Shown here: in pieces, positions 3,457 to 33,985 of the stretch
Position numbering within the stretch: the first letter of the stretch is position 1
Layout of the letters: each line of letters starts with the position of its first letter
NCBI GenBank assembly: GCA_903844735.1
Contig: CAIMUX010000002.1
Coordinates: 62,001 to 126,000, forward strand
Source of the DNA: Candidatus Eiseniibacteriota bacterium
GTDB taxonomy: Bacteria > Eisenbacteria > RBG-16-71-46 > CAIMUX01
Direction of reading: 5' to 3'
Length of the DNA: 64,000 nucleotides
The notes under the pieces: generated by a model
What the model was told of the DNA's origin: nothing
Database searches by the model: none
What the model saw: only the letters and a program-made list of their open reading frames with translations
Position numbers and translations under genes: made by a program

Positions 3457-4388
3457 CGCGGGAGAGACTCACCGAACCCCACGAGCCGCACTTCCAACTC
3501 TAGCGTCACCCCGAGCCGATCGAGGACCGTCCAGCGGATCCGTTCCACCAGCGCGAAGATGTCCCGCGCCGTGGCCCCGCCGCGGTTGATGATGTAATTG
3601 GCGTGGATCGGGGAGACGAGCGCCGCGCCCTCCTCCGCTCCCTTCAGCCCGACGGCCTCGATGAGCCGCCCCGCGTGGTCTCCCGGCGGGTTCTTGAAGA
3701 CCGATCCGCACGATGCCCCCGCGGGTGTGCGTGTGCGACGCTGAGCCGCGTACTCGCGCATCTTTGCTTGCAGCTCTCTCGCGTCGCCCGCGAGCAGGGC
3801 GAGCTCCACGGCGAGCAGGAACCGCGTGCCCGGGGGTGCATCGCGCAGCGCGCTGCCGCGGTAGCTGAAGCCGAGGTTCGCGGGCGAGAGCGTCTGCTCC
3901 CCGCAGACGAGGGAGTAGCCTGCCGCGCCCCGAAGCACAGCGGCGATCTCTCCGCCGAAGGCGCCGGCGTTGCCGACCACCGCCCCGCCGATCGTTCCGG
4001 GAATCCCTTCGGCCCACTCGAGGCCCGCCCAGCCCGCCAGGGCTGTGCCCCGCGCCACCGCGGCCAACGGCGCACGAGCCCCCGCCCGCAGGAGCGCGCC
4101 ATTCGGACCCGACCCAACGCTCCAGTTGCGCGTGCCGCAACGGACGACCAACCCGGGGAATCCCGTGTCGGCGACGAGCAGGTTGGTGCCGCCGCCCAGG
4201 GCGAGGACCGGCAATCGATGTCGGGTCGCGAAGGCGAGACACGATGCAAGGGCCACCGCATCGACGGGTGTGGCGAAGAAGGCGGCGGGGCCGCCGACCT
4301 TCCAGGTAGTGAGCGGCGCAAGGGGACGGTCCCGCGTGATTCCCGGCGGAAGCCGGCCGTTGGGCAAGGAAAGAGCCGCCGGGGTCAT
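3453..4388 (-). CDS. murB: UDP-N-acetylenolpyruvoylglucosamine reductase MurB
   Basis: MurB reduces UDP-GlcNAc-enolpyruvate to UDP-N-acetylmuramate with NADPH and bound FAD, an early cytoplasmic step of peptidoglycan synthesis. The 311-residue length fits the family. The FAD-binding type-4 fold shows L-G-G-G-T-N-L-L-V (64-72) and a glycine-rich G-I-P-G-T-I-G-G segment (128-135). The active-site loop C-G-S-V-F-K-N-P places the proton-donating serine at 229. Y-R-G-S near 176 and E-L-E-V near 297 complete the site, in a type II MurB layout. The ATG at 4388 has an AAGGAG site 8 bases upstream, and the tRNA-Leu gene lies 20 bases upstream on the same strand. Other mur genes are not adjacent. Confidence 0.95.
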   Translation of the reverse strand: MTPAALSLPNGRLPPGITRDRPLAPLTTWKVGGPAAFFATPVDAVALASCLAFATRHRLPVLALGGGTNLLVADTGFPGLVVRCGTRNWSVGSGPNGALLRAGARAPLAAVARGTALAGWAGLEWAEGIPGTIGGAVVGNAGAFGGEIAAVLRGAAGYSLVCGEQTLSPANLGFSYRGSALRDAPPGTRFLLAVELALLAGDARELQAKMREYAAQRRTRTPAGASCGSVFKNPPGDHAGRLIEAVGLKGAEEGAALVSPIHANYIINRGGATARDIFALVERIRWTVLDRLGVTLELEVRLVGFGESLPR

Positions 4389-4408
4389 CGGCGGCTCCTT
4401 AGAAAATG

Positions 4409-4493
4409 TGCCGAAGGTGGGACTCGAACCCACACGGGATCATCTCCCACTGGATTTTGAGTCCAGCGTGTCTGCCAATTTCACCACTTCGGC
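4409..4493 (-). tRNA. tRNA-Leu (anticodon CAA)
   Basis: An 85-base class II tRNA with a long variable arm. The acceptor stem is GCCGAAG/CTTCGGC with discriminator A at 4409. The anticodon stem CTGGA/TCCAG holds the loop CTCAAAA, giving anticodon CAA, which reads TTG. The T-arm has GTTCGAGTC. The CCA end is not encoded. It sits between a lipoprotein gene (18 bases upstream) and murB (20 bases downstream) on the same strand, so it may be cut from a longer transcript. Confidence 0.95.
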
Positions 4494-4511
4494 GCCATGA
4501 ACCGGATCTTA

Positions 4512-5102
4512 CTACAGTTCGGCTGTCACGACGACAACCGCGGTGAGCTTGTCGATCGTGATGTTGAAGTCCGACTCGTCCGCGATCCCATAGAGATAGA
4601 ATGTTCCATCCTTCACCGCATCATGAAGGACGCTCTGATTCACTTCCAGGGCGAGCGACGCGTCGTAGTCAATATTCGTGTAGCCCGATTGGAGCACCAG
4701 CCCCTCCAGGACCCTCGTGGCCGACGGCGAGGCCTGGATGGCCTCGGCTGTCAAGGGACGGATCGGGGTCTTGCTGATGTAGATCATTCCGTGAGCGGTG
4801 CTGTCCGGAACGGTGTCCCGGTTGTTCTGAGCGCGGAAAACAAACCCGACTTCGTCGACGCTCTTGATCTTGTCCTTGTTGTCCTTGAAATCGCTGTTCT
4901 TGTTCAGGTCAACGAACAGCTCGGCGACGAATTCGTCCTGAGACTGTTGCAGACCCTCCGGAAAGTCGCGTTCGATGCGCAAGGTTCCCGAGACCAGGGA
5001 GCATCCGGGGAGACATAGCGCGATAGCGGCGACCGCAAAAAAACCGAACGCCCAGATCAGGATTCCTGCCTTGATTCCGGATGACGAGTTGTGGACACGC
5101 AT
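4512..5102 (-). CDS. lipoprotein of unknown function
   Basis: A 196-residue predicted lipoprotein. A positively charged start is followed by a hydrophobic segment ending in the lipobox L-P-G-C, so the mature protein would begin at that cysteine. The rest is an acidic, beta-rich domain with no family I recognise. One stretch, V-D-L-N-K-N-S-D-F-K-D-N-K-D, looks like a calcium-binding loop. Two ATGs are possible: the one at 5108 is only 2 bases from the AGGAGG site, whereas 5102 has 8-base spacing and is preferred. It follows the beta-barrel gene by 12 bases and is probably co-transcribed with it. Confidence 0.8.
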   Translation of the reverse strand: MRVHNSSSGIKAGILIWAFGFFAVAAIALCLPGCSLVSGTLRIERDFPEGLQQSQDEFVAELFVDLNKNSDFKDNKDKIKSVDEVGFVFRAQNNRDTVPDSTAHGMIYISKTPIRPLTAEAIQASPSATRVLEGLVLQSGYTNIDYDASLALEVNQSVLHDAVKDGTFYLYGIADESDFNITIDKLTAVVVVTAEL

Positions 5103-5114
5103 CGGCATAGCCTC

Positions 5115-5690
5115 CTAGCGGAGAAAGTAGTAATTGACTCCGGCCTGCAGGGCGGCAAATTTGTGCGTCCCGCCGCTCTCGTAGGGCATGGCGTGCAGGC
5201 GTCCGCAGATGTCCACCGCGATTCCGCTGCTCGATCGGAACTCGACGCCGAGGCCACCGTTGTAGCCGATCCGGCTGATATCCTCCGCGAAATCCTTTGT
5301 CAGCGAGTAGGAGCCGATCCCGCCCAGCAGATAGACCCCAAGACCGGATGCTCCGGTGGTTTGCAGGATCAGGTCCGCAGCGATGACCGACTGGCTGAAT
5401 CCCTTGGTGGTTTGATCGACCCCTTGTGCCTTGAAGGTGATGTCGCCCGCCGGAAAACTGGTGAATGACAGCTCCGCTCCGAGGGGGCCAGCGAGGTCGG
5501 CGCGCGCTTTGAGGCCGTAAAGCGGTCCGGCCGCGACATTGTCCTGGATCACCGGTCTCCCGTAGATTCCGTAGACCCCGCCGCCGGCGCGAATTTTGTT
5601 CTGGGCCGCCGAGCCCGAAGCGGACAGGGCCAAGAGCCCGGGGAGCACGATCCCGACTATGAGGAACCTCATGCAAGTCCGTTGTTTCAT
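5115..5690 (-). CDS. outer-membrane beta-barrel protein, OmpW/Opa-like size
   Basis: A 191-residue protein with a signal peptide (hydrophobic stretch ending S-A-S-G-S-A-A-Q near residue 30). It continues with alternating polar/apolar beta strands and a C-terminal strand ending Y-Y-F-L-R, the aromatic ending typical of small outer-membrane barrels. The ATG at 5690 has a GGAGGT site 7 bases upstream. Its substrate or role is unknown. It is followed after 12 bases by the lipoprotein gene, suggesting a two-gene unit in the outer membrane. Confidence 0.75.
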   Translation of the reverse strand: MKQRTCMRFLIVGIVLPGLLALSASGSAAQNKIRAGGGVYGIYGRPVIQDNVAAGPLYGLKARADLAGPLGAELSFTSFPAGDITFKAQGVDQTTKGFSQSVIAADLILQTTGASGLGVYLLGGIGSYSLTKDFAEDISRIGYNGGLGVEFRSSSGIAVDICGRLHAMPYESGGTHKFAALQAGVNYYFLR

Positions 5691-25034: not shown

Positions 25035-25097
25035 CTACGACCCCGCCACCCAGTTCCGGATTGTCTCGACCACGTATCCCTGCTGATCGGATGTCAG
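25035..25097 (-). pseudogene. displaced ancestral 3' end of the DegT aminotransferase gene
   Basis: On the minus strand this piece reads L-T-S-D-Q-Q-G-Y-V-V followed by E-T-I-R-N-W-V-A-G-S and a TAG stop at 25037-25035. The intact aminotransferase gene at 32798-33922 has the same L-T-S-D-Q-Q-G-Y-V-V-E-T-I and then L-N-W-C-H-D-N. This fragment is therefore the original end of that gene, cut off by insertion of the element. It has no start or ribosome site of its own. Confidence 0.88.
25063..25097 (+). repeat. attL core (35-bp direct repeat, left copy)
   Basis: Identical to 32826-32860. It begins GTCTCGACCACGTATCC and ends GGATGTCAG. Weaker similarity continues to the left (CCAGTT and GGAT shared with the right copy), reflecting mimicry of the host gene's last codons. 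Confidence 0.93.
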
Positions 25098-25220
25098 ATA
25101 CAAAGGCACTTCGGGCCGTTTCACTCCACCCCGCAGACGGCACGAAAGGCGTTGACACCCCGCATATTCGGCGGCATTCTGGCACCGGGACCTTTCACGG
25201 CGTTCCGTGGCAACCCGAAG

Positions 25221-25245
25221 CGGGATGCTAGCCCAGGACTAGCCC
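25221..25245 (+). repeat. left-arm repeat, candidate integrase arm-binding sites
   Basis: CGGGATGCTAGCCC at 25221-25234 recurs exactly at 32740-32753 near the other end, in the same orientation. CTAGCCC is repeated at 25228-25234 and 25239-25245. Such paired short repeats inside both ends of an integrated element fit arm-type integrase sites. They also sit just upstream of the integrase ribosome site, so binding could repress int. Confidence 0.5.
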
Positions 25246-25257
25246 AGGAGGACGGAA

Positions 25258-26487
25258 ATGGAAGGGGAGACGCGGCGGGTGCGGAAGTTCACCGACCCCT
25301 ACGTGCGGAACCGGAAGCCGGAGGAGCACGCCTACGTCGTGTGGGCTCCTGATGGTCTCGGCCTGCGAGTCCGACCGTCGGGGGTACGCTCGTGGATCTA
25401 TGCCTACCACCTGAACGGCCGATTCCGATGGATGACGCTGGGGCGCTATCCCGAGATGACCGTGGCCGCCGCCCATACGGCACACGACACGGCGATGCGG
25501 AACCGTGGCGCCGGCGTCGACCCTGCGACCCTTGCCGTGGCAGCCAACATCGCAGACCGGGCCGCCCCGACCGTGGCCGAGCTGGCCGATCAGTTCATCG
25601 AGCTGTACTCGAAGCCGCGGAAGAAGTCGGCATTCGAGGATGAGCGGCTGCTGCGTGTAGAGGTGCTCCCCCACCTTGGTACCGTGAAGGCCGCAAACGT
25701 GCGCAGGCGCGATGTCATGGCGCTTCTCGATGGGATTGTGGCTCGTGGTGCGGGAGTGACCGCCAATCGCGTGCTGGCGGTTCTGAGGAAGGCGTACAAC
25801 TGGGGCATCACCCGCGAGCTGGTGGAGTTCTCCCCTTGTGCGCAGGTCCCCCGCCCCGCGAAGGAGCACGAGCGGGAGCGGTTCCTATCGGCCGACGAGC
25901 TCAAGCGCTTCCTCGTCGGGATGGATCAGCCGGGTCTCTTCGAGTTCACGAAGACCACCAAGCACGCGCTGCGGTTCCAGCTTGCCACCGGAGCCCGGCC
26001 GGGGGAAACGGCTGGTGCGACGTGGCAGGAGTTCGACCTCCAGGCCGGCGTGTGGACGATGCCAGCGGAGCGGACGAAGACTCACCACGCGCATACGGTT
26101 CCGCTGAGTCAGTTCGCCCGACAGGTTCTTAGGGAAGTTCGCCTGCTGAATCCTCTCTCCATCTATCCGTTCCCCGGGCGTAAAGGCCCGATGCTGCCGG
26201 CCACGATGTCGGCCGCGATCAACGGCAACCTCGCGGCACTCGGCCTAGAGCGGTTCACCCCGCATGATCTCAGGCGCTCGTGTGCGACTCACCTTGCCAG
26301 CCTGGGGCACTCTCGCGTTGTGATCAGCCGGATCCTGGGGCACGCGCTGCCCGGGGTGACGAGGATTTACGACCGGCACGCCTACGCGGAGGAGATGCGA
26401 GCGGCCCTCGATGAATGGGGCGCCGTGCTGTACCGCCTCAGCAGGCCGGCGGGACCGGAGGCGGTCAAGAGGAGGGCGCGCCGATGA
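25258..26487 (+). CDS. int: P4-type tyrosine integrase
   Basis: A 409-residue integrase. The N-terminal DUF4102-type arm-binding domain (about 8-95, with W-I-Y-A-Y and L-G-R-Y-P) is followed by a SAM-like core-binding domain (about 105-195). The catalytic domain has R247 (T-G-A-R-P-G-E), K274, H336 and R339 (T-P-H-D-L-R-R), H362 (L-G-H) and nucleophile Y371. It should recombine the 35-bp core sites and lies 160 bases from attL, as expected. The ATG at 25258 follows AGGAGG. A TTGACA at 25152 with a poor -10 is a possible promoter. Its stop overlaps the next gene by ATGA. Confidence 0.95.
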   Translation: MEGETRRVRKFTDPYVRNRKPEEHAYVVWAPDGLGLRVRPSGVRSWIYAYHLNGRFRWMTLGRYPEMTVAAAHTAHDTAMRNRGAGVDPATLAVAANIADRAAPTVAELADQFIELYSKPRKKSAFEDERLLRVEVLPHLGTVKAANVRRRDVMALLDGIVARGAGVTANRVLAVLRKAYNWGITRELVEFSPCAQVPRPAKEHERERFLSADELKRFLVGMDQPGLFEFTKTTKHALRFQLATGARPGETAGATWQEFDLQAGVWTMPAERTKTHHAHTVPLSQFARQVLREVRLLNPLSIYPFPGRKGPMLPATMSAAINGNLAALGLERFTPHDLRRSCATHLASLGHSRVVISRILGHALPGVTRIYDRHAYAEEMRAALDEWGAVLYRLSRPAGPEAVKRRARR

Positions 26488-26990
26488 TCCCCGACGCTGC
26501 CCGCGACGAAATCGCACGCCTTGTCGGCGAGTTCCAAGCAACCCGCGACCCTGGCCACCTGCTCTTGGCGCTCGACTGCGCTTGCCGCTGGTGCGACGTA
26601 CCGGACGAGCTCGGCGAGCTCGTCAAGACGGCGTTCGACCGCTGGGCGGCCGGCCGGGTCGATCCGCTCGACGTCTCCTCTCTGCCATGCCGCGACCTCG
26701 ATGTAGCCTTCGGTGCGAAGCCCCGCGGGCCGAAGTTCAAGGCGCCAGTCGCCACACTCCGGGCGGCTGAGCTCGAAATGTCGATGGGCACTCTGGCCTT
26801 CTACGAGGTGGAGCGACAGCGGAAGCGCGGCCGCGGCACCGATCGGCGCCGGACCCCCAACGCTTTCAGCGAGGCGGCGAAGGTGCTGCCCAAGATCCGC
26901 GGCAAAGCCGCGTCTGCCGTCACTCTGGAGCGCGCTTGGTCGCGGGTGCGAAAGCTCTCCCGAGACCCCGACAGCCACACTCAGCAATGA
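26484..26990 (+). CDS. hypothetical element protein
   Basis: A 168-residue protein coupled to the integrase gene by a 4-base ATGA overlap, with GGAGGG upstream. I do not recognise a family. The N-terminal half is helical with a C-A-C-R-W-C motif. The C-terminal 60 residues are very basic (Q-R-K-R-G-R-G-T-D-R-R-R) and end in a helix pair (T-L-E-R-A-W-S-R-V-R-K-L-S-R) suggesting DNA binding. The position next to int suggests a recombination or regulatory accessory role, which is inference. Confidence 0.7.
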   Translation: MIPDAARDEIARLVGEFQATRDPGHLLLALDCACRWCDVPDELGELVKTAFDRWAAGRVDPLDVSSLPCRDLDVAFGAKPRGPKFKAPVATLRAAELEMSMGTLAFYEVERQRKRGRGTDRRRTPNAFSEAAKVLPKIRGKAASAVTLERAWSRVRKLSRDPDSHTQQ

Positions 26991-27086
26991 GCGCTTTCGT
27001 GAGTGTATGATCTTACGTAGCAATGCGTTATCGCCTTGAGCTAGAGTGATTCCTGCGGCATCGTGCCCCTCGAAGGGAGGCACGAA

Positions 27087-27308
27087 ATGCCACAGATCGA
27101 ACCAAAGGCCCCGCCCTCGAGACTGCTCCGGCGGCGCGACGTAACCGCCCGGACCGGACTCAGCTCAACCACCCTCTGGCGACTCGAAGGACTCGGCCAA
27201 TTCCCCAAGCGGCGCCAACTATCGGAGCGGCTGGTGGGCTGGCTGGAATCCGAAATCGACGAATGGATCTCGACGCGGACGGGGGCGGTTCCGGCGGTGA
27301 AGCCGTGA
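27087..27308 (+). CDS. AlpA-family transcriptional regulator / excisionase
   Basis: A 73-residue MerR-like winged-helix protein. It shows the AlpA pattern L-L-R-R-R-D-V-T-A-R-T-G-L-S, then T-T-L-W-R-L-E-G-L-G-Q-F-P-K and V-G-W-L-E-S-E-I-D-E-W. In P4 and PICIs such proteins switch the island on and direct excision. The ATG at 27087 has GGGAGG 6 bases upstream. The 96 bases before it contain TATGAT (27006-27011), a possible -10. It overlaps the next gene by GTGA. Confidence 0.88.
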   Translation: MPQIEPKAPPSRLLRRRDVTARTGLSSTTLWRLEGLGQFPKRRQLSERLVGWLESEIDEWISTRTGAVPAVKP

Positions 27309-27478
27309 CCGCCGTCGAGCAGACCGAGCTCGACGAGGCGCTGCGGGCCGTCAAGCGCATCGCATTGGACGCGACGGCGGGCGACGTCGACGCTGTTGCG
27401 GCCGCGGCGCTGAGGGCCCGGAGGGCGCTGCTCGTGCTCTATGCTGAGCTCAAGCAGGCCGAGCGGAACGCACGATGA
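27305..27478 (+). CDS. small helical protein of unknown function
   Basis: A 57-residue acidic/Ala-rich all-helical protein translated from a GTG that overlaps the alpA stop (GTGA). It overlaps the primase start in turn (ATGA). The double coupling argues it is real. There is no recognisable domain; it may be a coiled-coil accessory to the primase. Confidence 0.6.
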   Translation: MTAVEQTELDEALRAVKRIALDATAGDVDAVAAAALRARRALLVLYAELKQAERNAR

Positions 27479-29178
27479 CGACCGAGCTCAAGAACGTCCT
27501 CTCGCGTCTCGAGGGCGTGCGATCCGTCGAGGGCGGACACGAGGCGAGGTGCCCCGCCCACGAGGACGGTGTGCCAAGCCTCTCCGTCTCGCTCGGAGAC
27601 GATGGGCGCGTGCTCCTCAAGTGTCACGCAGGATGCAGCACGCAGGCCGTCGTTGCGGCCGCGGGGCTGGCCTTGACCGACTTGTTTCCCCCGCGGACGC
27701 AGTATGTCTACCGGGACGAGGCCGGGAAGTCTCTCTTCCGAGTCGTACGTGGTCCAGTCGTCGACGGGGAGAAAACGTTCTGGCAGAACCCGAGTGACGG
27801 CAACGGCGGCTGGCGGACGGGCAAGGGATGCATGCAGGGCGTCCGGCTCGTGCCGTTCCAACTTCCACAGCTCCTCGCGGCGGATCTCTCCAGGCCGTGC
27901 TACATCGTCGAGGGTGAGAAAGACGTCCTCTCGCTCGCTGCCATCGGTGCGGTGGCAACGACAAACCCCGGCGGCGCAGGTAAATGGCGACCCGAGTTCA
28001 ACGAGTTTCTACGCGGCCGCCTGTGCGTGCTCCTCCCCGACAACGACAAGCCCGGCCTGGATCATATGCGGACCGTCGCTCGCCACTTGCAGGACGTGGC
28101 CGAAGAGGCGCGCATCCTCACGCTGCCCGGGCTGCCGCCGAAAGGCGACGTCTCGGACTACCTGGCCAACGGTGGCACGCGCGAGACGTTGGACGAGCTG
28201 GCCGCCGCGGCTCCCGTGCTCAGCGAGACGGCGGACCTTTCGGACGATGCGCCGGCCTCGACGGACACTCCACCGGCCGGTGCGGCCCTTGTCTCTCTGA
28301 CCGCCGAAGAGATGCTGGCCATCCGGCGCCCACCGCGGGAGTTCATCCTCGAGCCGATTCTGCGCACGAAAGACCTCGCCATGCTGGTGGCCAAGCGCGG
28401 GGTCGGCAAGACGTGGATCTCCGTCGGCATGGCGAGCGCGACCGCGGCCGGCGGCGAGTTCCTTGTGTGGCGAGCTCCCAAGCCGCGCAGCGTCCTCTAC
28501 GTCGACGGCGAGCTCCCCTTCGAGACGGTACAGGAGCGGCTGGAGCTCACGCGGACGATGCACGGCCACGACTGGGGCGGACGACTGCGGATCCTCGCGG
28601 CGGACTACCAAGAGCGCAGCATCCCCAGCTTGAACCTCCCCGAGGGGCAACGGCTGGTAGAGGAGCACCTGGGCGAGGCGGAGATCCTCTTCCTCGACAA
28701 CCTGTCGGCACTGTGCACCGGCGGCGTGGAGAACGAGGCCGAGTCGTGGCAGCCGATGCAGGACTGGCTCCTCTCGCTCCGGCGCCGGGGGATAGCAGTC
28801 CTCTTCGATCACCACGCCGGCACCTCCGGCAACCAGCGCGGGACCAGCAAGCGCGAGGACGTGCTCGACCTGTCCATCAAGCTGGAGCACCCGGCCGACT
28901 ATGACTCGCGGGACGGCGCCCGGTTCGTCGTGACCTACACCAAGGCCCGGGGGATCCACGGCAAAGCCGCTGAGGCGTTCGAGGCGCGGCTCGGGACGGG
29001 AGACCTGTCCAGCTCCCGGTGGATCACCAAGACCTGCTCGGCCGCCACCAAGGAACGAGTCCTCAACCTGCACGAGAACGGACTCACCCAGGCCGAGATC
29101 GGCAAGGAGTTGGGCAAGGACAAGAGCACTGTTTCTCGCATCATCAAGCAGGCTCGGGAGTCGGGAGAGATCCAGTGA
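27475..29178 (+). CDS. replication protein: zinc-finger/Toprim primase fused to RecA-like helicase and HTH
   Basis: A 567-residue protein that should start replication of the excised element. Zinc-binding primase module: C26, H29, C50 and C54 (C-P-A-H ... C-H-A-G-C). Toprim-like fold: V-E-G-E-K-D (145-150) with P-D-N-D-K-P-G (188-194). AAA_25/RecA-like ATPase: Walker A A-K-R-G-V-G-K-T (306-313), Y-V-D-G-E and Walker B I-L-F-L-D-N (404-409). C-terminal helix-turn-helix (about 533-560): L-T-Q-A-E-I-G-K-E-L-G then S-T-V-S-R-I. The HTH could bind the GCAAC repeats immediately downstream. It is coupled to the upstream gene by ATGA. The RepA/primase order resembles P4 alpha but the domain set differs. 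Confidence 0.9.
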   Translation: MTTELKNVLSRLEGVRSVEGGHEARCPAHEDGVPSLSVSLGDDGRVLLKCHAGCSTQAVVAAAGLALTDLFPPRTQYVYRDEAGKSLFRVVRGPVVDGEKTFWQNPSDGNGGWRTGKGCMQGVRLVPFQLPQLLAADLSRPCYIVEGEKDVLSLAAIGAVATTNPGGAGKWRPEFNEFLRGRLCVLLPDNDKPGLDHMRTVARHLQDVAEEARILTLPGLPPKGDVSDYLANGGTRETLDELAAAAPVLSETADLSDDAPASTDTPPAGAALVSLTAEEMLAIRRPPREFILEPILRTKDLAMLVAKRGVGKTWISVGMASATAAGGEFLVWRAPKPRSVLYVDGELPFETVQERLELTRTMHGHDWGGRLRILAADYQERSIPSLNLPEGQRLVEEHLGEAEILFLDNLSALCTGGVENEAESWQPMQDWLLSLRRRGIAVLFDHHAGTSGNQRGTSKREDVLDLSIKLEHPADYDSRDGARFVVTYTKARGIHGKAAEAFEARLGTGDLSSSRWITKTCSAATKERVLNLHENGLTQAEIGKELGKDKSTVSRIIKQARESGEIQ

Positions 29179-29179
29179 A

Positions 29180-29409
29180 GTTGCCCCACTCTGACCAGTT
29201 GCATGTTGTGTTACTTAGTAACACGCAACACGCAACTTTGGTAGAGTCACGCGCAACACGCAACGCAACATGCCATGCAACTACTATTGCAGCGCAACGA
29301 GTTAGCACAGGTCAGACGCAACAACTCACGCAACAACCCGTGCAACTAGGTAGTTGCATGACCCCTGTTTTTGACCCCTCAAACGCGCACCCTATGCAAC
29401 TCGTGCAAC
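29180..29409. repeat. iteron-like GCAAC array, candidate replication origin
   Basis: Within 230 bases the pentamer GCAAC occurs twelve times on the plus strand (29225, 29232, 29253, 29260, 29265, 29277, 29294, 29318, 29330, 29342, 29396, 29405). It occurs three times inverted as GTTGC (29180, 29198, 29353). Chance would give about 0.5. Recurrent spacings are 7 and 12 bases, and the region is locally AT-richer than its surroundings. It directly follows the primase gene, where PICI-like elements place their origin. An open frame crosses it but has no recognisable protein. Confidence 0.75.
29208..29224. repeat. 17-bp perfect dyad at the edge of the iteron array
   Basis: GTGTTAC and GTAACAC flank TTA. 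It is AT-rich and abuts the first pair of GCAAC repeats, as an unwinding site or a dimer-binding site of an initiator would. Confidence 0.6.
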
Positions 29410-29704
29410 TCGGCCAGACCCCGCCGCGACCGACCACCCACCCCCTCGACACCAGCATCATCGGCCGCGACACCAGCGGCAGCCGTAAGTCGTTGCGTAT
29501 CAACGAGCGGGTCCTCCCTGGGGCGTTTCATGCGGGTAGCGCGGGGGCACGGAAAGCCTCTACGCTCTGGCTTCCAGGAAGTCCGAACGAACGACCGCCC
29601 GACGGTGCCGTCAACATATCTGCATCATTATCAGCCAGTTACACCACTGACCACGAGTCACCCCAATGACCCACACCGCCGGTACACCGGCACGGAGGAA
29701 CCCA

Positions 29705-29950
29705 ATGCTCACGAAAACCCTGACGATCTCAGCCTACGCCCGGTATCGACGCGAGCGTGGGCTGCCCGGCGGCGCCAAGTCGTCCGTACACGCGGCGCTG
29801 TTGGCAGGACGAATCTCAAGGTCGTGCCCGTCGCACCCCCGGCGCTGCCCGGCGGAGTGTCGCTGCGGGAAGATCGACCCCCACCGGGCCGATCTGGCCT
29901 GGCAGCGGTGGACCAACCCGGCGATGGTTCGGACGGGAGGTGCCCGGTGA
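29705..29950 (+). CDS. TerS-like / phage small DNA-binding protein
   Basis: An 81-residue protein with the pattern I-S-A-Y-A-R-Y-R ... V-H-A-A-L-L-A-G-R-I ... G-K-I-D-P-H-R-A-D-L-A-W. This is typical of short winged-HTH phage proteins often annotated as terminase small subunit or Nu1-like. A cysteine-rich insert (C-P-S-H-P-R-R-C-P-A-E-C-R-C) lies between the halves. The ATG at 29705 is 5 bases after GGAGGAA. It overlaps the next gene by GTGA. If it is a TerS it could redirect a helper's packaging motor to this element. Confidence 0.6.
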   Translation: MLTKTLTISAYARYRRERGLPGGAKSSVHAALLAGRISRSCPSHPRRCPAECRCGKIDPHRADLAWQRWTNPAMVRTGGAR

Positions 29951-30294
29951 CGTGGGAGCCCGACCACGAGCGGCCGCCCGTGCCGCCCCCGGCGCCGGCC
30001 GATCCGCCCCCGGGCCCGCCGCCGATGATCTGCCCCCAGTGTGGCGCCCACCAGATGCACCATCCGATGGACCAGGGCAAACAGAGCTTCTATTGCCCGC
30101 ACCTGAACGGCGGGACTTGGGCCGTGCGGCTCCCTGGAGACCGCTGGGCGATCAACACCGGGGTGACCCCTGCCGTGCATCGGAACCTGGTCGCCAGCTC
30201 CCTGGCCGGCGCCGTGCGGCTCTGCCAGGACATGGCCGCCGCATCCCGCCCGCGAACCTGGCGCGACCGGCTCCTCGGAAGGAAATCCCGTTGA
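29947..30294 (+). CDS. zinc-ribbon protein of unknown function
   Basis: A 115-residue protein started at GTG in a 4-base overlap with the TerS-like gene. A proline-rich N-terminus (about 8-28) is followed by a zinc-ribbon C-P-Q-C-G ... Y-C-P-H (about 32-52). A helical C-terminal part ends in basic residues. It has no known counterpart; the zinc ribbon suggests nucleic-acid binding. Confidence 0.65.
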   Translation: MTWEPDHERPPVPPPAPADPPPGPPPMICPQCGAHQMHHPMDQGKQSFYCPHLNGGTWAVRLPGDRWAINTGVTPAVHRNLVASSLAGAVRLCQDMAAASRPRTWRDRLLGRKSR

Positions 30295-30532
30295 CTCCGC
30301 GGCCGAATTGTGGTACCACTTACGCGAGTCGCCGATCTGCCGCTCTCCCCGAGCGCTCGGGCCGGCGACCCGAGACCCGCCCCGGCTCTGCCGCTGGCGG
30401 ACTCGCGCGGCTCGGAAGCTTCGGGTCTCACCCGACCAACCGCCCGCGGAACGCAGAAACAGCACAGGGCAATCAACGCCCCGTTTTGCGTTCGCCCATC
30501 GCACGGACCCCGGACCCGTGCAGGAGAATCCA

Positions 30533-32371
30533 TTGAATGTCCCCAAGATAGCTAGCAGGGAGCTGATCCCTGACCGCCACCGAGCGCAATCGGAAGACCT
30601 GACCATTCCTGCCAGCCTCAGCTCAGAAACGCCCGTGGAGCGGCTCTGGGGCGCGGAGATCCTCGAGCACTCGACCGCCGCGGTGGACTTGACCCGTGCC
30701 CGCGACGGACTCCCGTTGCTGGCCAGTCACGACACCCGCGAGATGCCGCCCGTCGGCAAGGTCGAAAACGTGCGGCTCTCTGGCAAGCAGTTGCGCGGCA
30801 CCTTGCGATTCGCGCCTACCGCTCGGGGGCGCGAGCTCTTCCAGGCGGTCCGCGACGGCTTCGCTGGCGCCATCAGCATCGGTTACGAAATCAAGAAAAT
30901 GGTCGAGGCCGGCACCGACCGTGCGACCGGACGCGGCGTTTACCGCGCGATCGACTGGGCGCCGTTTGAGTGCAGCCTCGTCAACGTTCCCGCAGACACC
31001 AGCGTCGGAGCCTATCGAAGCGCTCCGCAGAAGGAGCCTTGTATCATGGCAATCGAAGTCACCCCCGACCCGGCCGCCGAAGCCGAACGCTTCCGCGTCC
31101 ACAGCATCACCTCGCTAGGCGGCGCCTGGAAAGATCGCGGCGGTCCCGAGATGGCCCTGCGTGCCGTCGCCGAGGGCTCGAGCCTCGAGGACTTTCGTCG
31201 GACGCTGGTGGAGCGGCTCGCATCGCAGTCCAGCCCGGCGATCCGTGCCTGCGCCGGCCCCGAGATCGGCGAGAGTGCCGACTACCGCAGGGAGCTGGAA
31301 CGCTACTCACTCTGCAAGGCGATCCTCGCGTTGACCTCCGGTGACTGGCGCGAGGCCGGCCGGGAGCGCGAGATCGGCGAGGACTACGGCCGCCGCACCG
31401 GCGTGCGGTCCGAGGGGATCGTCATTCCCCTGCAAGCGCTCGTGCCCCGACACTCGCGCGCACTTTCGCAGGGCAGCAGCGCTGCGGGTGGATACCTCGT
31501 GCAGACCGACCTTCTGGCCAACCAGTTCATCGACGTGCTGCGCGCGAAATCGCAGGTAGTCGCGGCCGGGGCTACGACCTTGCCCGGTCTGACTGGCAAC
31601 GTCGCCATTCCGAGGAAGGCTTCGGGATCTACCGCCTACTGGCTCGCCAGCGAGACGAGCGACATCACCCCGGCTGATCCGGCGTTTGCGCAAATGTCGC
31701 TCTCGCCGAAGACCGTGGGTGCGCTGACCGAGTTCAGCCGGAAGCTTCTGCTTCAGGCCACCCCGGAAATCGAGATGCTCGTGCAGCAGGAGCTGGTCGA
31801 CGTGATCGGGACCGCGATTGACGCGGCCGTGATCGCAGGGACCGGGTCGGGTGGCCAGCCTTCGGGGATCACCACCATGCCGGCCGGCATCGGTGCGGTC
31901 GTCATGGGCGCGGCCGGCGCGGCGCTGACCCATGCGAAGGTCGTCGAGCACTTGGCGGACGTGGCTGTCGCCAACGCGGACTCCGGCTCCCTGGCGTGGA
32001 TCGTCAACGCCAAGACGCAGGCCAAGCTCATGGTCACGCTCCGGGATGCCAGCTACGGAGTCGGGTACCTCTGGGGCGACGCTCCGGCCGGCGCGGCGTA
32101 CCAGGGAGTGATCGCAGGTAAGCCGGCGTTCGTCTCCAACAACGTGCCGAGCAACCTCGTCAAGGGCGGCTCCGGTGCGGTCTGCTCGGCGACGATCTAC
32201 GGCAACTGGGCCGATGTGATCGTCGGGCTGTGGGGCGGTCTCGAGCTCCTCGCCGATCCGTACACGAAGTTCGCATCCGGCGCGGTCCGGGTTCGTGCGA
32301 TGGCCAGCATCGACACCGGGCTTCGGCATCCCGAGTCGTTTGCTGTCTCTCTGGATGTCCTGACGGCGTAG
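30533..32371 (+). CDS. HK97-type prohead protease fused to major capsid protein
   Basis: A 612-residue fusion. The N-terminal domain (1-165) is a U35/S78-type prohead protease with H66 (L-L-A-S-H-D), S115 (A-I-S-I-G-Y) and E146 (W-A-P-F-E-C-S-L-V), nearly the same positions as in HK97 gp4. A scaffold-like linker (about 172-285) is followed by an HK97-fold capsid protein: G-G-Y-L-V near 320, V-G-A-L-T-E-F-S-R-K-L-L, G-T-G-S-G-G-Q-P-S-G-I and A-Y-Q-G-V-I-A-G-K-P at its core. No ATG precedes the protease; a TTG at 30533 lies 6 bases after AGGAG. An internal ATG with its own strong ribosome site (31046) could yield free capsid protein. It is the only structural gene in the element. Confidence 0.92.
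   Translation: MNVPKIASRELIPDRHRAQSEDLTIPASLSSETPVERLWGAEILEHSTAAVDLTRARDGLPLLASHDTREMPPVGKVENVRLSGKQLRGTLRFAPTARGRELFQAVRDGFAGAISIGYEIKKMVEAGTDRATGRGVYRAIDWAPFECSLVNVPADTSVGAYRSAPQKEPCIMAIEVTPDPAAEAERFRVHSITSLGGAWKDRGGPEMALRAVAEGSSLEDFRRTLVERLASQSSPAIRACAGPEIGESADYRRELERYSLCKAILALTSGDWREAGREREIGEDYGRRTGVRSEGIVIPLQALVPRHSRALSQGSSAAGGYLVQTDLLANQFIDVLRAKSQVVAAGATTLPGLTGNVAIPRKASGSTAYWLASETSDITPADPAFAQMSLSPKTVGALTEFSRKLLLQATPEIEMLVQQELVDVIGTAIDAAVIAGTGSGGQPSGITTMPAGIGAVVMGAAGAALTHAKVVEHLADVAVANADSGSLAWIVNAKTQAKLMVTLRDASYGVGYLWGDAPAGAAYQGVIAGKPAFVSNNVPSNLVKGGSGAVCSATIYGNWADVIVGLWGGLELLADPYTKFASGAVRVRAMASIDTGLRHPESFAVSLDVLTA
31031..31048 (+). promoter_or_regulatory. internal ribosome site and ATG for a separate capsid protein
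   Basis: AAGGAG (31031-31036) is followed after 9 bases by an in-frame ATG (31046-31048) at codon 172, exactly where the protease domain ends. Translation here would give a 441-residue scaffold-capsid protein without protease. Confidence 0.6.
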
Positions 32372-32797
32372 CACCGTGGCGGGCCGTCTGGGCTGCTCCC
32401 CACCGGCAGCCTGGGCGGTCCGCTCCCCCGATGCCGCGTGGGGTTTCCTTTCCCCCTCGCGGCGGTCCGTCGGCTGGTGTGGGCACGCTGGCCGGCGGAC
32501 CATTCTGTAGGTCTGCGGGGATCGGCGAGACCGACCAGGCGACGCTACCCCTCGAAGGCCGACCACGACGCTCCGGCTGCAAAGCTGGTGCGTTTGTGCA
32601 TCCAGGCGACGCTGTAGGGACGCGCAGGAGCGACGATCTCGACCGCATCCGAGTGTGGACACGGGAGACGCGGAGAACGGGCGGCTGGGGCGATGCGGGG
32701 CGCGATAGACTCTGACTGCGGATCAGCGTGCCGGGATCCCGGGATGCTAGCCCGACCGCTAGCCCGCGCTCTGCGAGCTCCACCGCGTTGCGGTCAA
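32372..32797. other. non-coding right end of the element
   Basis: No convincing gene follows the capsid gene. A weak CCCC/GGGG hairpin with a T-rich tail lies at 32425-32450 and might end the capsid transcript. The right-arm repeat is near the end. The last part also contains the downstream flank of the aminotransferase gene. Confidence 0.5.
32740..32765 (+). repeat. right-arm repeat, candidate integrase arm-binding sites
   Basis: CGGGATGCTAGCCC at 32740-32753 matches 25221-25234. CTAGCCC recurs at 32747-32753 and 32759-32765. It lies 60-85 bases inside attR, in direct orientation relative to the left copy. Confidence 0.5.
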
Positions 32798-33922
32798 CTA
32801 GTTATCGTGACACCAGTTAAGGATGGTCTCGACCACGTATCCCTGCTGATCGGATGTCAGCTCCGGATAGACGGGGATCGACAGGCTTTCACGGGTCGCA
32901 GCTTCGGAGACCGGCAGGCTTCCCTTCCGGTAGCCCAGGTCCGCGAAACACTCCTGCAGGTGGAGCGGGATCGGATAGTAGACATCGCTGCCGATCCCCT
33001 TCTCCGAGAGATGACTGCGCAGCCCGTCACGCGATCCGCGCCGCACCCGAAGGGTGTACTGGTTCCAAACATGCTTCCCCCGTCCGGCGTCAATCGGCGT
33101 GATGAGGCCGTCGAGATCCGCGAACGCTTGGGTGTAGGCGCTGGCGTGCGAGGCCCGCGCGGCGGTCCAGGAATCGAGATGCGCGAGCTTCACCCCGAGT
33201 ATCGCCGCCTGCACAGAGTCGAGGCGACTGTTGAAGCCGACCCGCTCGTGTTTGTACCTCTCGCGGGAGCCGTGCGTGCGCAGCATCCGGACGCGATCGG
33301 CGAGGTCGTCGCGCCGGGTGGTGATGAGGCCGCCATCGCCCGCTCCACCTAGATTTTTCGATGGGTAGAACGAGAAACAACCAAGGTCTCCCACCCCTCC
33401 TACCGGGATGTCGCGCCAGGTTGCGCCGATAGCCTGGGCCGCATCCTCGATGACGGGAATGCCGCGCTTTCCGCAACAGTCCATGATTGGCGCCATGTCA
33501 GCCGATTGGCCGAATAGATGCACAGGCATGACCGCCCGTGTCCGCGGGGTGATGACTTGTTCCAGCGCGTTCGGGTTGAGGTTGAAGGTTGCCTCCTCGA
33601 TATCGACGAAGACCGGCCGCGCCCCGTTGTTGCTGATGGCGCCGGCCGTGGCGAAGAAACTGTAGGCCGGGCAGATCACTTCGGTCCCCGGGCCGCAGTC
33701 CAGGGCCCGCAGCGCCACGAGGAGGGCGTCGGTGCCCGACGCGACGCCTACCGCGTGCGGCACGGCGAGGTAGCGGGCCAGTCGCTCCTCCAGGTCTCGC
33801 ACGGCGGGACCGAGGATCCACTGTCCACTGGCGAGAACTGATTCCACGGCCTGGAGCAAGGGTTCGCGAATGGTGGCGTACTGAGCCTTTACATCGAGGA
33901 GGGGGACGCGCATCTCAGCCAA
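32798..33922 (-). CDS. DegT/DnrJ/EryC1-family sugar aminotransferase (element-restored C-terminus)
   Basis: A 374-residue PLP-dependent enzyme that aminates a keto-sugar nucleotide. The PLP lysine is K189 in F-Y-P-S-K-N-L-G-G-A-G. S-G-T-D-A-L near 62 and V-I-E-D-A-A-Q near 157 are also canonical. In this operon it could be the WbpE-like step giving a UDP-3-amino-uronic acid. The TTG at 33922 is favoured by AAAGGAG at 6-base spacing; ATG 33913 is the alternative. The last codons (L-N-W-C-H-D-N) come from the integrated element; the original ending (R-N-W-V-A-G-S) lies at 25035-25062. The encoded length is unchanged (20 codons from L-T-S-D to stop on both sides). Confidence 0.92.
   Translation of the reverse strand: MAEMRVPLLDVKAQYATIREPLLQAVESVLASGQWILGPAVRDLEERLARYLAVPHAVGVASGTDALLVALRALDCGPGTEVICPAYSFFATAGAISNNGARPVFVDIEEATFNLNPNALEQVITPRTRAVMPVHLFGQSADMAPIMDCCGKRGIPVIEDAAQAIGATWRDIPVGGVGDLGCFSFYPSKNLGGAGDGGLITTRRDDLADRVRMLRTHGSRERYKHERVGFNSRLDSVQAAILGVKLAHLDSWTAARASHASAYTQAFADLDGLITPIDAGRGKHVWNQYTLRVRRGSRDGLRSHLSEKGIGSDVYYPIPLHLQECFADLGYRKGSLPVSEAATRESLSIPVYPELTSDQQGYVVETILNWCHDN
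32826..32860 (+). repeat. attR core (35-bp direct repeat, right copy)
   Basis: Identical to 25063-25097. It lies inside the 3' end of the aminotransferase gene and encodes its L-T-S-D-Q-Q-G-Y-V-V segment on the minus strand. Confidence 0.93.
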
Positions 33923-33985
33923 GGGGAACTCCTTTCCTGGGCGCAGTGCGCGTCTGCCGAGGGGCAAGAATCGCGCGTCGGCCGG

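Follow-up and report, generated by a model that had tools for sequence, protein, structure and literature searches.

What is the role of a dense cluster of one short word, GCAAC or its complement GTTGC, that begins at the stop codon of a primase gene? We addressed this question in a stretch of 64,000 nucleotides from Candidatus Eiseniibacteriota bacterium (hereafter, the window). The array is a real feature. Between 29180 and 29409 there are 12 GCAAC and 3 GTTGC words (15 in all), while the rest of the window predicts 0.44 per 230 bp, and the first word starts 2 nt after the TGA of the primase-helicase gene (27475-29178). These counts reproduce the first-pass annotation, which had reported 15 pentamers in 230 bases against about 0.5 expected, beginning at the primase stop. 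One further word, the 16th, is found at 29492, and the runner-up clustered 5-mers, which are G+C-rich, reach only 10 copies per 230 bp. Each array was scored by its best 5-7-mer within the 300 nt that follow the stop codon, and the best window was compared locus-wide. Our array scored 15.4, against a maximum of 6.6 in shuffles of the same 300 nt and of 5.6 in all other 300-nt windows within 4.5 kb. A three-word pattern search of the 5.4-Mb genome gave no second GCAAC array; the remaining clusters were at the control level, which led us to reject a host-wide word bias.

We propose, with a probability of about 0.83, that an integrated element of 7.8 kb, which resembles a phage satellite and encodes a capsid, uses this array as its replication origin, and that the words are read by the C-terminal helix-turn-helix (HTH) of the primase-helicase. 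The perfect 17-bp dyad that had been noted beside the first word pair is indeed exact. It sits precisely between two reverse words, one at 29198 and the other a degenerate GTTGT, and the forward pair at 29225 and 29232, and is the centre of a core in which inverted word pairs flank it (Table 1), though the dyad is weak as stand-alone evidence because 7-bp arms occur by chance. The GC content is 42% at 29200-29249 versus 66% in the window, with no pronounced AT block.

Table 1. Coordinates of the element, the putative origin and adjacent features in the window.
Feature	Position	Strand	Basis
attL-like 48-bp direct repeat	25050..25097	.	94% identical to 32813-32860
Tyrosine integrase	25258..26487	+	Pfam Phage_integrase E=2.9e-24, Arm-DNA-bind_3
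AlpA-type regulator/excisionase	27087..27308	+	Pfam Phage_AlpA E=8.8e-19
Primase-helicase initiator	27475..29178	+	CHC2-like zinc ligands, Toprim_2, AAA_25, C-terminal HTH (Pfam; ligands by inspection)
C-terminal HTH domain, proposed word reader	29047..29169	+	HTH_23 E=1.1e-6; model pLDDT ~95
GCAAC/GTTGC array, proposed origin	29180..29409	.	Word counts and comparison with relatives
Core GTTGC-at-GTTGt -- gttacTTAgtaac -- acGCAAC-ac-GCAAC, inverted word pairs around palindrome	29198..29236	.	
Perfect 17-nt dyad GTGTTAC-TTA-GTAACAC (7-3-7)	29208..29224	.	Exact
Possible small gene, overlaps last two pentamers	29358..29669	+	Open frame, ATGA overlap with next ORF; not conserved
Prohead protease-major capsid fusion	30308..32371	+	Phage_capsid E=2.8e-39; PHROG 617 major head protein E=5.8e-106
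DegT/DnrJ aminotransferase gene	32798-33967	minus	
attR-like repeat, 3' end of DegT/DnrJ aminotransferase gene	32813..32860	.	Repeat match

The array is located within an element that is bounded by a direct repeat, the sole long one between 23 and 41 kb, and spans 7.76 kb between the two copies, in the order int, AlpA, primase-helicase, array, small ORFs and capsid protein. The DNA to the right of the second copy (aminotransferase, then polysaccharide genes) is host DNA. No terminase, portal or tail gene was recognised in the 7.8 kb from 25050 to 32860, which by its gene content is a minimal capsid-carrying element of a PICI-like kind. A related capsid gene is found 0.4-1.6 kb past the array in eight IMG/VR loci (L051, L056, L058, L059, L060, L065, L091 and L128).

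The initiator combines CHC2-like zinc ligands (C26, H29, C50 and C54, by inspection) with Toprim_2 (aa 143-230), AAA_25 (aa 274-451) and HTH (aa 525-565) domains found with Pfam. A helicase-HTH profile matched the hexameric helicase RepA of RSF1010 (1g8y, E=1.8e-8). A single-sequence structure model (pLDDT 38) was set aside for an AlphaFold2 model from an alignment of 30 relatives (pLDDT 91.7), whose nearest solved structure is again RSF1010 RepA (1nlf; Foldseek E=1.1e-13, TM 0.63/0.73). According to the profile and the model, the helicase is a RecA-like hexameric core related to RSF1010 RepA (DnaB-like).

To which part of this protein might the words belong? The first-pass annotation had named the HTH or the zinc domain of the primase. 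The HTH is the likely reader, judging from the relatives, and the zinc domain was rejected, since arrays also follow helicase-HTH genes without the primase/zinc part (e.g. L057 and L091, ~353 aa) and are absent after HTH-less relatives. Because single-protein scans of viral and genome collections gave almost nothing close, relatives were collected with profiles (A2, A3 and A4) from IMG/VR, and from whole genomes and a Nitrobacter plasmid fragment (54% identical), giving 54 non-redundant HTH-bearing and 7 HTH-less relatives. In 41 of the 54 HTH-bearing relatives, but in none of the 7 HTH-less ones, the top-scoring short-word array anywhere in the locus immediately follows the stop, and the score in this position exceeds 6 in 40/54 versus 0/7 (Fisher p=2.7e-4; Mann-Whitney p=2e-4 for the scores of the two groups). 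On the seven tail-less relatives, the HTH profile gave less than 2 bits or no match. As positive controls, the same score was 14 for phage P4 crr (GGTGAA, 10 copies) and 17 for the PICI-like island of CFT073 (int-AlpA-primase-capsid; GGTAGA, 11 copies). Position, comparative anatomy and these controls give good support to the array as the putative origin of the excised element, as the first-pass annotation had suggested.

About one quarter of the HTH-bearing relatives have no array directly after the stop, and displaced arrays 0.1-1.1 kb downstream of it were found in the HTH-bearing L125, L131, L135, L140 and L141. The arrays of L125 and L131 lie ~777 and ~1074 nt past the stop, as though an insertion of genes had separated the array from the initiator; both loci have related HTH tails ([NS]R[FY]xxxR) and the same word, CCGCAC/CGCACA, which also occurs in L066. 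In L084, a CGGGACA array (10 copies, ~4800-5050) is inside an open frame (4000-5404) that encodes a winged-helix-like region, then the translated repeat (GQAGQAGQA...) and then another C-terminal domain, so that here the putative origin may lie within the initiator gene itself. On plasmid 2 of Nitrobacter hamburgensis (L041, 5037-5760), a truncated helicase-HTH gene, 54% identical to that of the window, is located beside CBASS defence genes and still followed by a small GTGGGACA array; these are probably the remains of a satellite adjoining a defence locus.

The word itself differs among relatives. GCAAC is found in the window, L050, L051, L052, L057, L091 and L128, and GGGACA in L054, L062, L110, L111 and Nitrobacter, while others carry GGACCA, GCACCA, GTGACA, GTAAAC, GGAAAC, TGAAACA, GTATAC, GTGTACA and further words. 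Among 42 arrays, word similarity correlated with similarity of the C-terminal tail (r=0.50), also with the helicase held constant (partial r=0.34, p<1/2000), whereas the correlation with the helicase was 0.05 (p=0.14) when the tail was held. Residues 1-8 of the recognition helix gave a partial r of 0.23 given the helicase and the rest of the HTH (p<1/2000), though Mantel permutations overstate all such significance because the loci are related by descent. With the recognition helix (helix 3) alone, the helicase retained a signal of 0.29, and among distant helicases the helix-word correlation was only 0.08. All four GGAAAC members (L067, L077, L105 and L087) have the helix motif [KR]Gx[VI]SK, including L077 and L105, whose helicases are distant (similarity 0.18); the GTAAAC members L007 and L072 have KGxVS[RQ], and the GCAAC members mostly [KR]SxxxR. 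In these sequences, the co-variation of word and tail is real but phylogenetically confounded support for the HTH as the reader.

Other functions can be imagined for such an array. The array separates the primase from the late genes, the initiator HTH weakly matches repressor-type PHROGs and origins can serve as operators too, so an operator might be considered, at which the HTH tail or another regulator of the element controls the downstream small genes and the capsid gene, or the primase. We regard this as unlikely: 8-16 copies over 200 bp are far above the need of an operator, arrays of known replication function look alike, and the region upstream of the initiator gene shows no excess of words (8 seen versus 7.5 expected), for which reason an operator at the initiator's own promoter was also rejected. 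A site for partition, packaging or recombination (integrase arms) instead of an origin is a slim prospect. Short-word clusters are known from such sites too and the integrase of the element has an arm-binding domain, but the array is 4 kb away from attL, whereas P4 arm sites adjoin attP, and a word that co-varies with the helicase HTH tail is unexpected for an integrase or terminase site.

It is very improbable that the array is part of a coding sequence, although an ORF (29019-29669) is open across it. In the window and in several GCAAC relatives, one reading frame crosses the array without interruption and terminates 440-524 nt past the initiator stop, and the next ORF begins at an ATGA overlap with that frame. 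The GCAAC/GTTGC word itself is incapable of forming stop codons. Stops are present in all three forward frames in 21 of 40 arrays, the words occur in all codon phases, and the translated array of the window with the part behind it has no conserved counterpart, its matches being word-driven only and occurring also between different frames. The first-pass annotation had set against an origin the case of a conserved frame with the pentamers destroyed; between elements, we found the pentamers kept and the open frame across them not conserved, and rejected the coding explanation. In L052, L053 and L068, a conserved gene for a small zinc-ribbon-like protein (~70% identity) is located 200-510 nt past the stop and overlaps the distal part of the array, where pentamers are fewer. 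A structured RNA or terminator has next to no probability, for although the perfect dyad could form a hairpin, there was no Rfam match even at E<=1, no T-run follows the dyad, and the words are found in either strand and differ from one HTH to another.

The best reading of the array is an origin of the PICI/P4 kind that would work with a different helicase and DNA-binding module. The first-pass annotation regarded such short, irregularly spaced words as unlike those of known islands. This does not hold, because origins of PICI, P4 and SCC elements also have words of 5-10 bp that immediately follow the initiator gene, and those of SaPI are likewise short. Gram-negative PICIs (EcCICFT073 type) share with our element the int-alpA-primase order, with the three genes codirectional and enclosed by direct repeats at the end of a host gene, and the short-iteron origin directly 3' of the primase gene (pri), often with a capsid gene after it (PMC6092414; PMC10111431), as in the GGTAGACA array of the CFT073 island. 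The pri-ori function was tested in an E. coli PICI of the same type, not necessarily the island read here (PMC6092414). On the other hand, these PICIs are 10-20 kb in size, above our 7.8 kb, and their origins have a clear AT-rich segment, in place of which our core has inverted word pairs around a short palindrome. Their primases are of the D5_N/DUF5906/Pox_D5 type (that of the CFT073 island has a D5-type helicase and a Pox_D5 tail), while our protein has Toprim_2, AAA_25 (RepA-like) and an HTH_23-like tail. Since PICI primases are defined by the Pox_D5, D5_N, DUF927, Prim-Pol and Zn-ribbon families (PMC10111431), we file the element as PICI-like rather than as a PICI. PICMI primases are defined by DUF3987/DUF5906 (PMC10803314), and thus there is some precedent for small satellites with other primase families. 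Our search of the literature accessible without subscription found no paper describing initiators of the RepA/AAA_25 type with such origins.

In SaPI, the C-terminal domain of Rep reads short repeats directly downstream, and SCCmec Cch2 reads 5-nt AAGTG words (PMC7581432). These self-loading helicases resemble our proposal in that a C-terminal domain reads short iterons just downstream, but they are AAA+/D5-type enzymes with a separate primase or polymerase and are unrelated in sequence. The alpha protein of phage P4 has the same plan as ours, namely a zinc and Toprim primase joined in one protein with a helicase and, at the C-terminus, a DNA-binding domain, and type I iterons of crr/ori are likewise short words that form inverted pairs immediately 3' of the gene. 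The modules differ, because P4 alpha has an SF3-type D5 helicase and a Pox_D5 winged helix where our protein has AAA_25 and HTH; moreover, P4 has a second site (ori) elsewhere and uses the GGTGAA word. RepA of RSF1010 (IncQ) shares the hexameric helicase fold, but in RSF1010 iterons of 20 bp are read by a separate RepC and priming is done by a separate RepB', whereas here helicase, HTH and primase are in one protein and the words are 5-7 bp.

In many arrays, the stop-proximal words are arranged as reverse-reverse-spacer-forward-forward, with a word spacing of 7-11 nt and a spacer of 10-16 nt that is centred on CTAG, CTTAG, CCTAAGG or CTATAG (e.g. GTTGCatGTTGCgtctcCTAGggaatGCAACacGCAAC in L057 and TGTCCCACTGTCCCACCCCCCTAGAGCGTGGGACAGTGGGACA in L110). 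Two pairs of opposite orientation (RRFF or FFRR) make up the first four words in 12/40 arrays versus ~5 expected by chance, and an inverted four-word core is present in 24/40 under loose criteria. The mean GC is 47% in arrays versus 53% in genes. L091 has two full inverted four-word cores (4100-4138 and 4306-4345, ~200 bp apart) in one array, centred on CCTATA and CCTAAGG. Four words in two inverted pairs around a palindrome can be likened to the layout of the SV40 core origin. We infer that, after excision of the element, which may depend on a helper, the C-terminal HTH of the adjacent primase-helicase would bind the GCAAC words, and that the core may be a loading site for a double hexamer, where the two word pairs, inverted on either side of the TTA palindrome, probably place RepA-type hexamers in opposite directions. 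Additional words would increase the local protein concentration; the helicase would then open the DNA, and the fused Toprim primase would prime replication.

More tentatively, RepA-type primase-helicase initiators might form a broad class, present in satellites and phages, whose members self-load at four-word inverted-pair cores around a CCTA..TAGG- or CTAG-like palindrome, with specificity given by a readable helix/word code, such as [KR]GxVSK with GGAAAC and KSxxSR with GCAAC. If this doubtful generalisation is true, origin words should be predictable from the protein sequence.

Finally, satellite searches rely on primases of the D5/AEP type, and the elements described here form, alongside those, a second group of small elements that carry a capsid gene but use another type of initiator. 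Their signature, a short-word array right after an HTH-tailed helicase gene, would allow origins to be found from raw sequence. The naturally diversified pairs of HTH and word should be a useful data set for how a self-loading helicase chooses its origin, and may also bear on the rise of new origin specificities and hence of compatibility groups.
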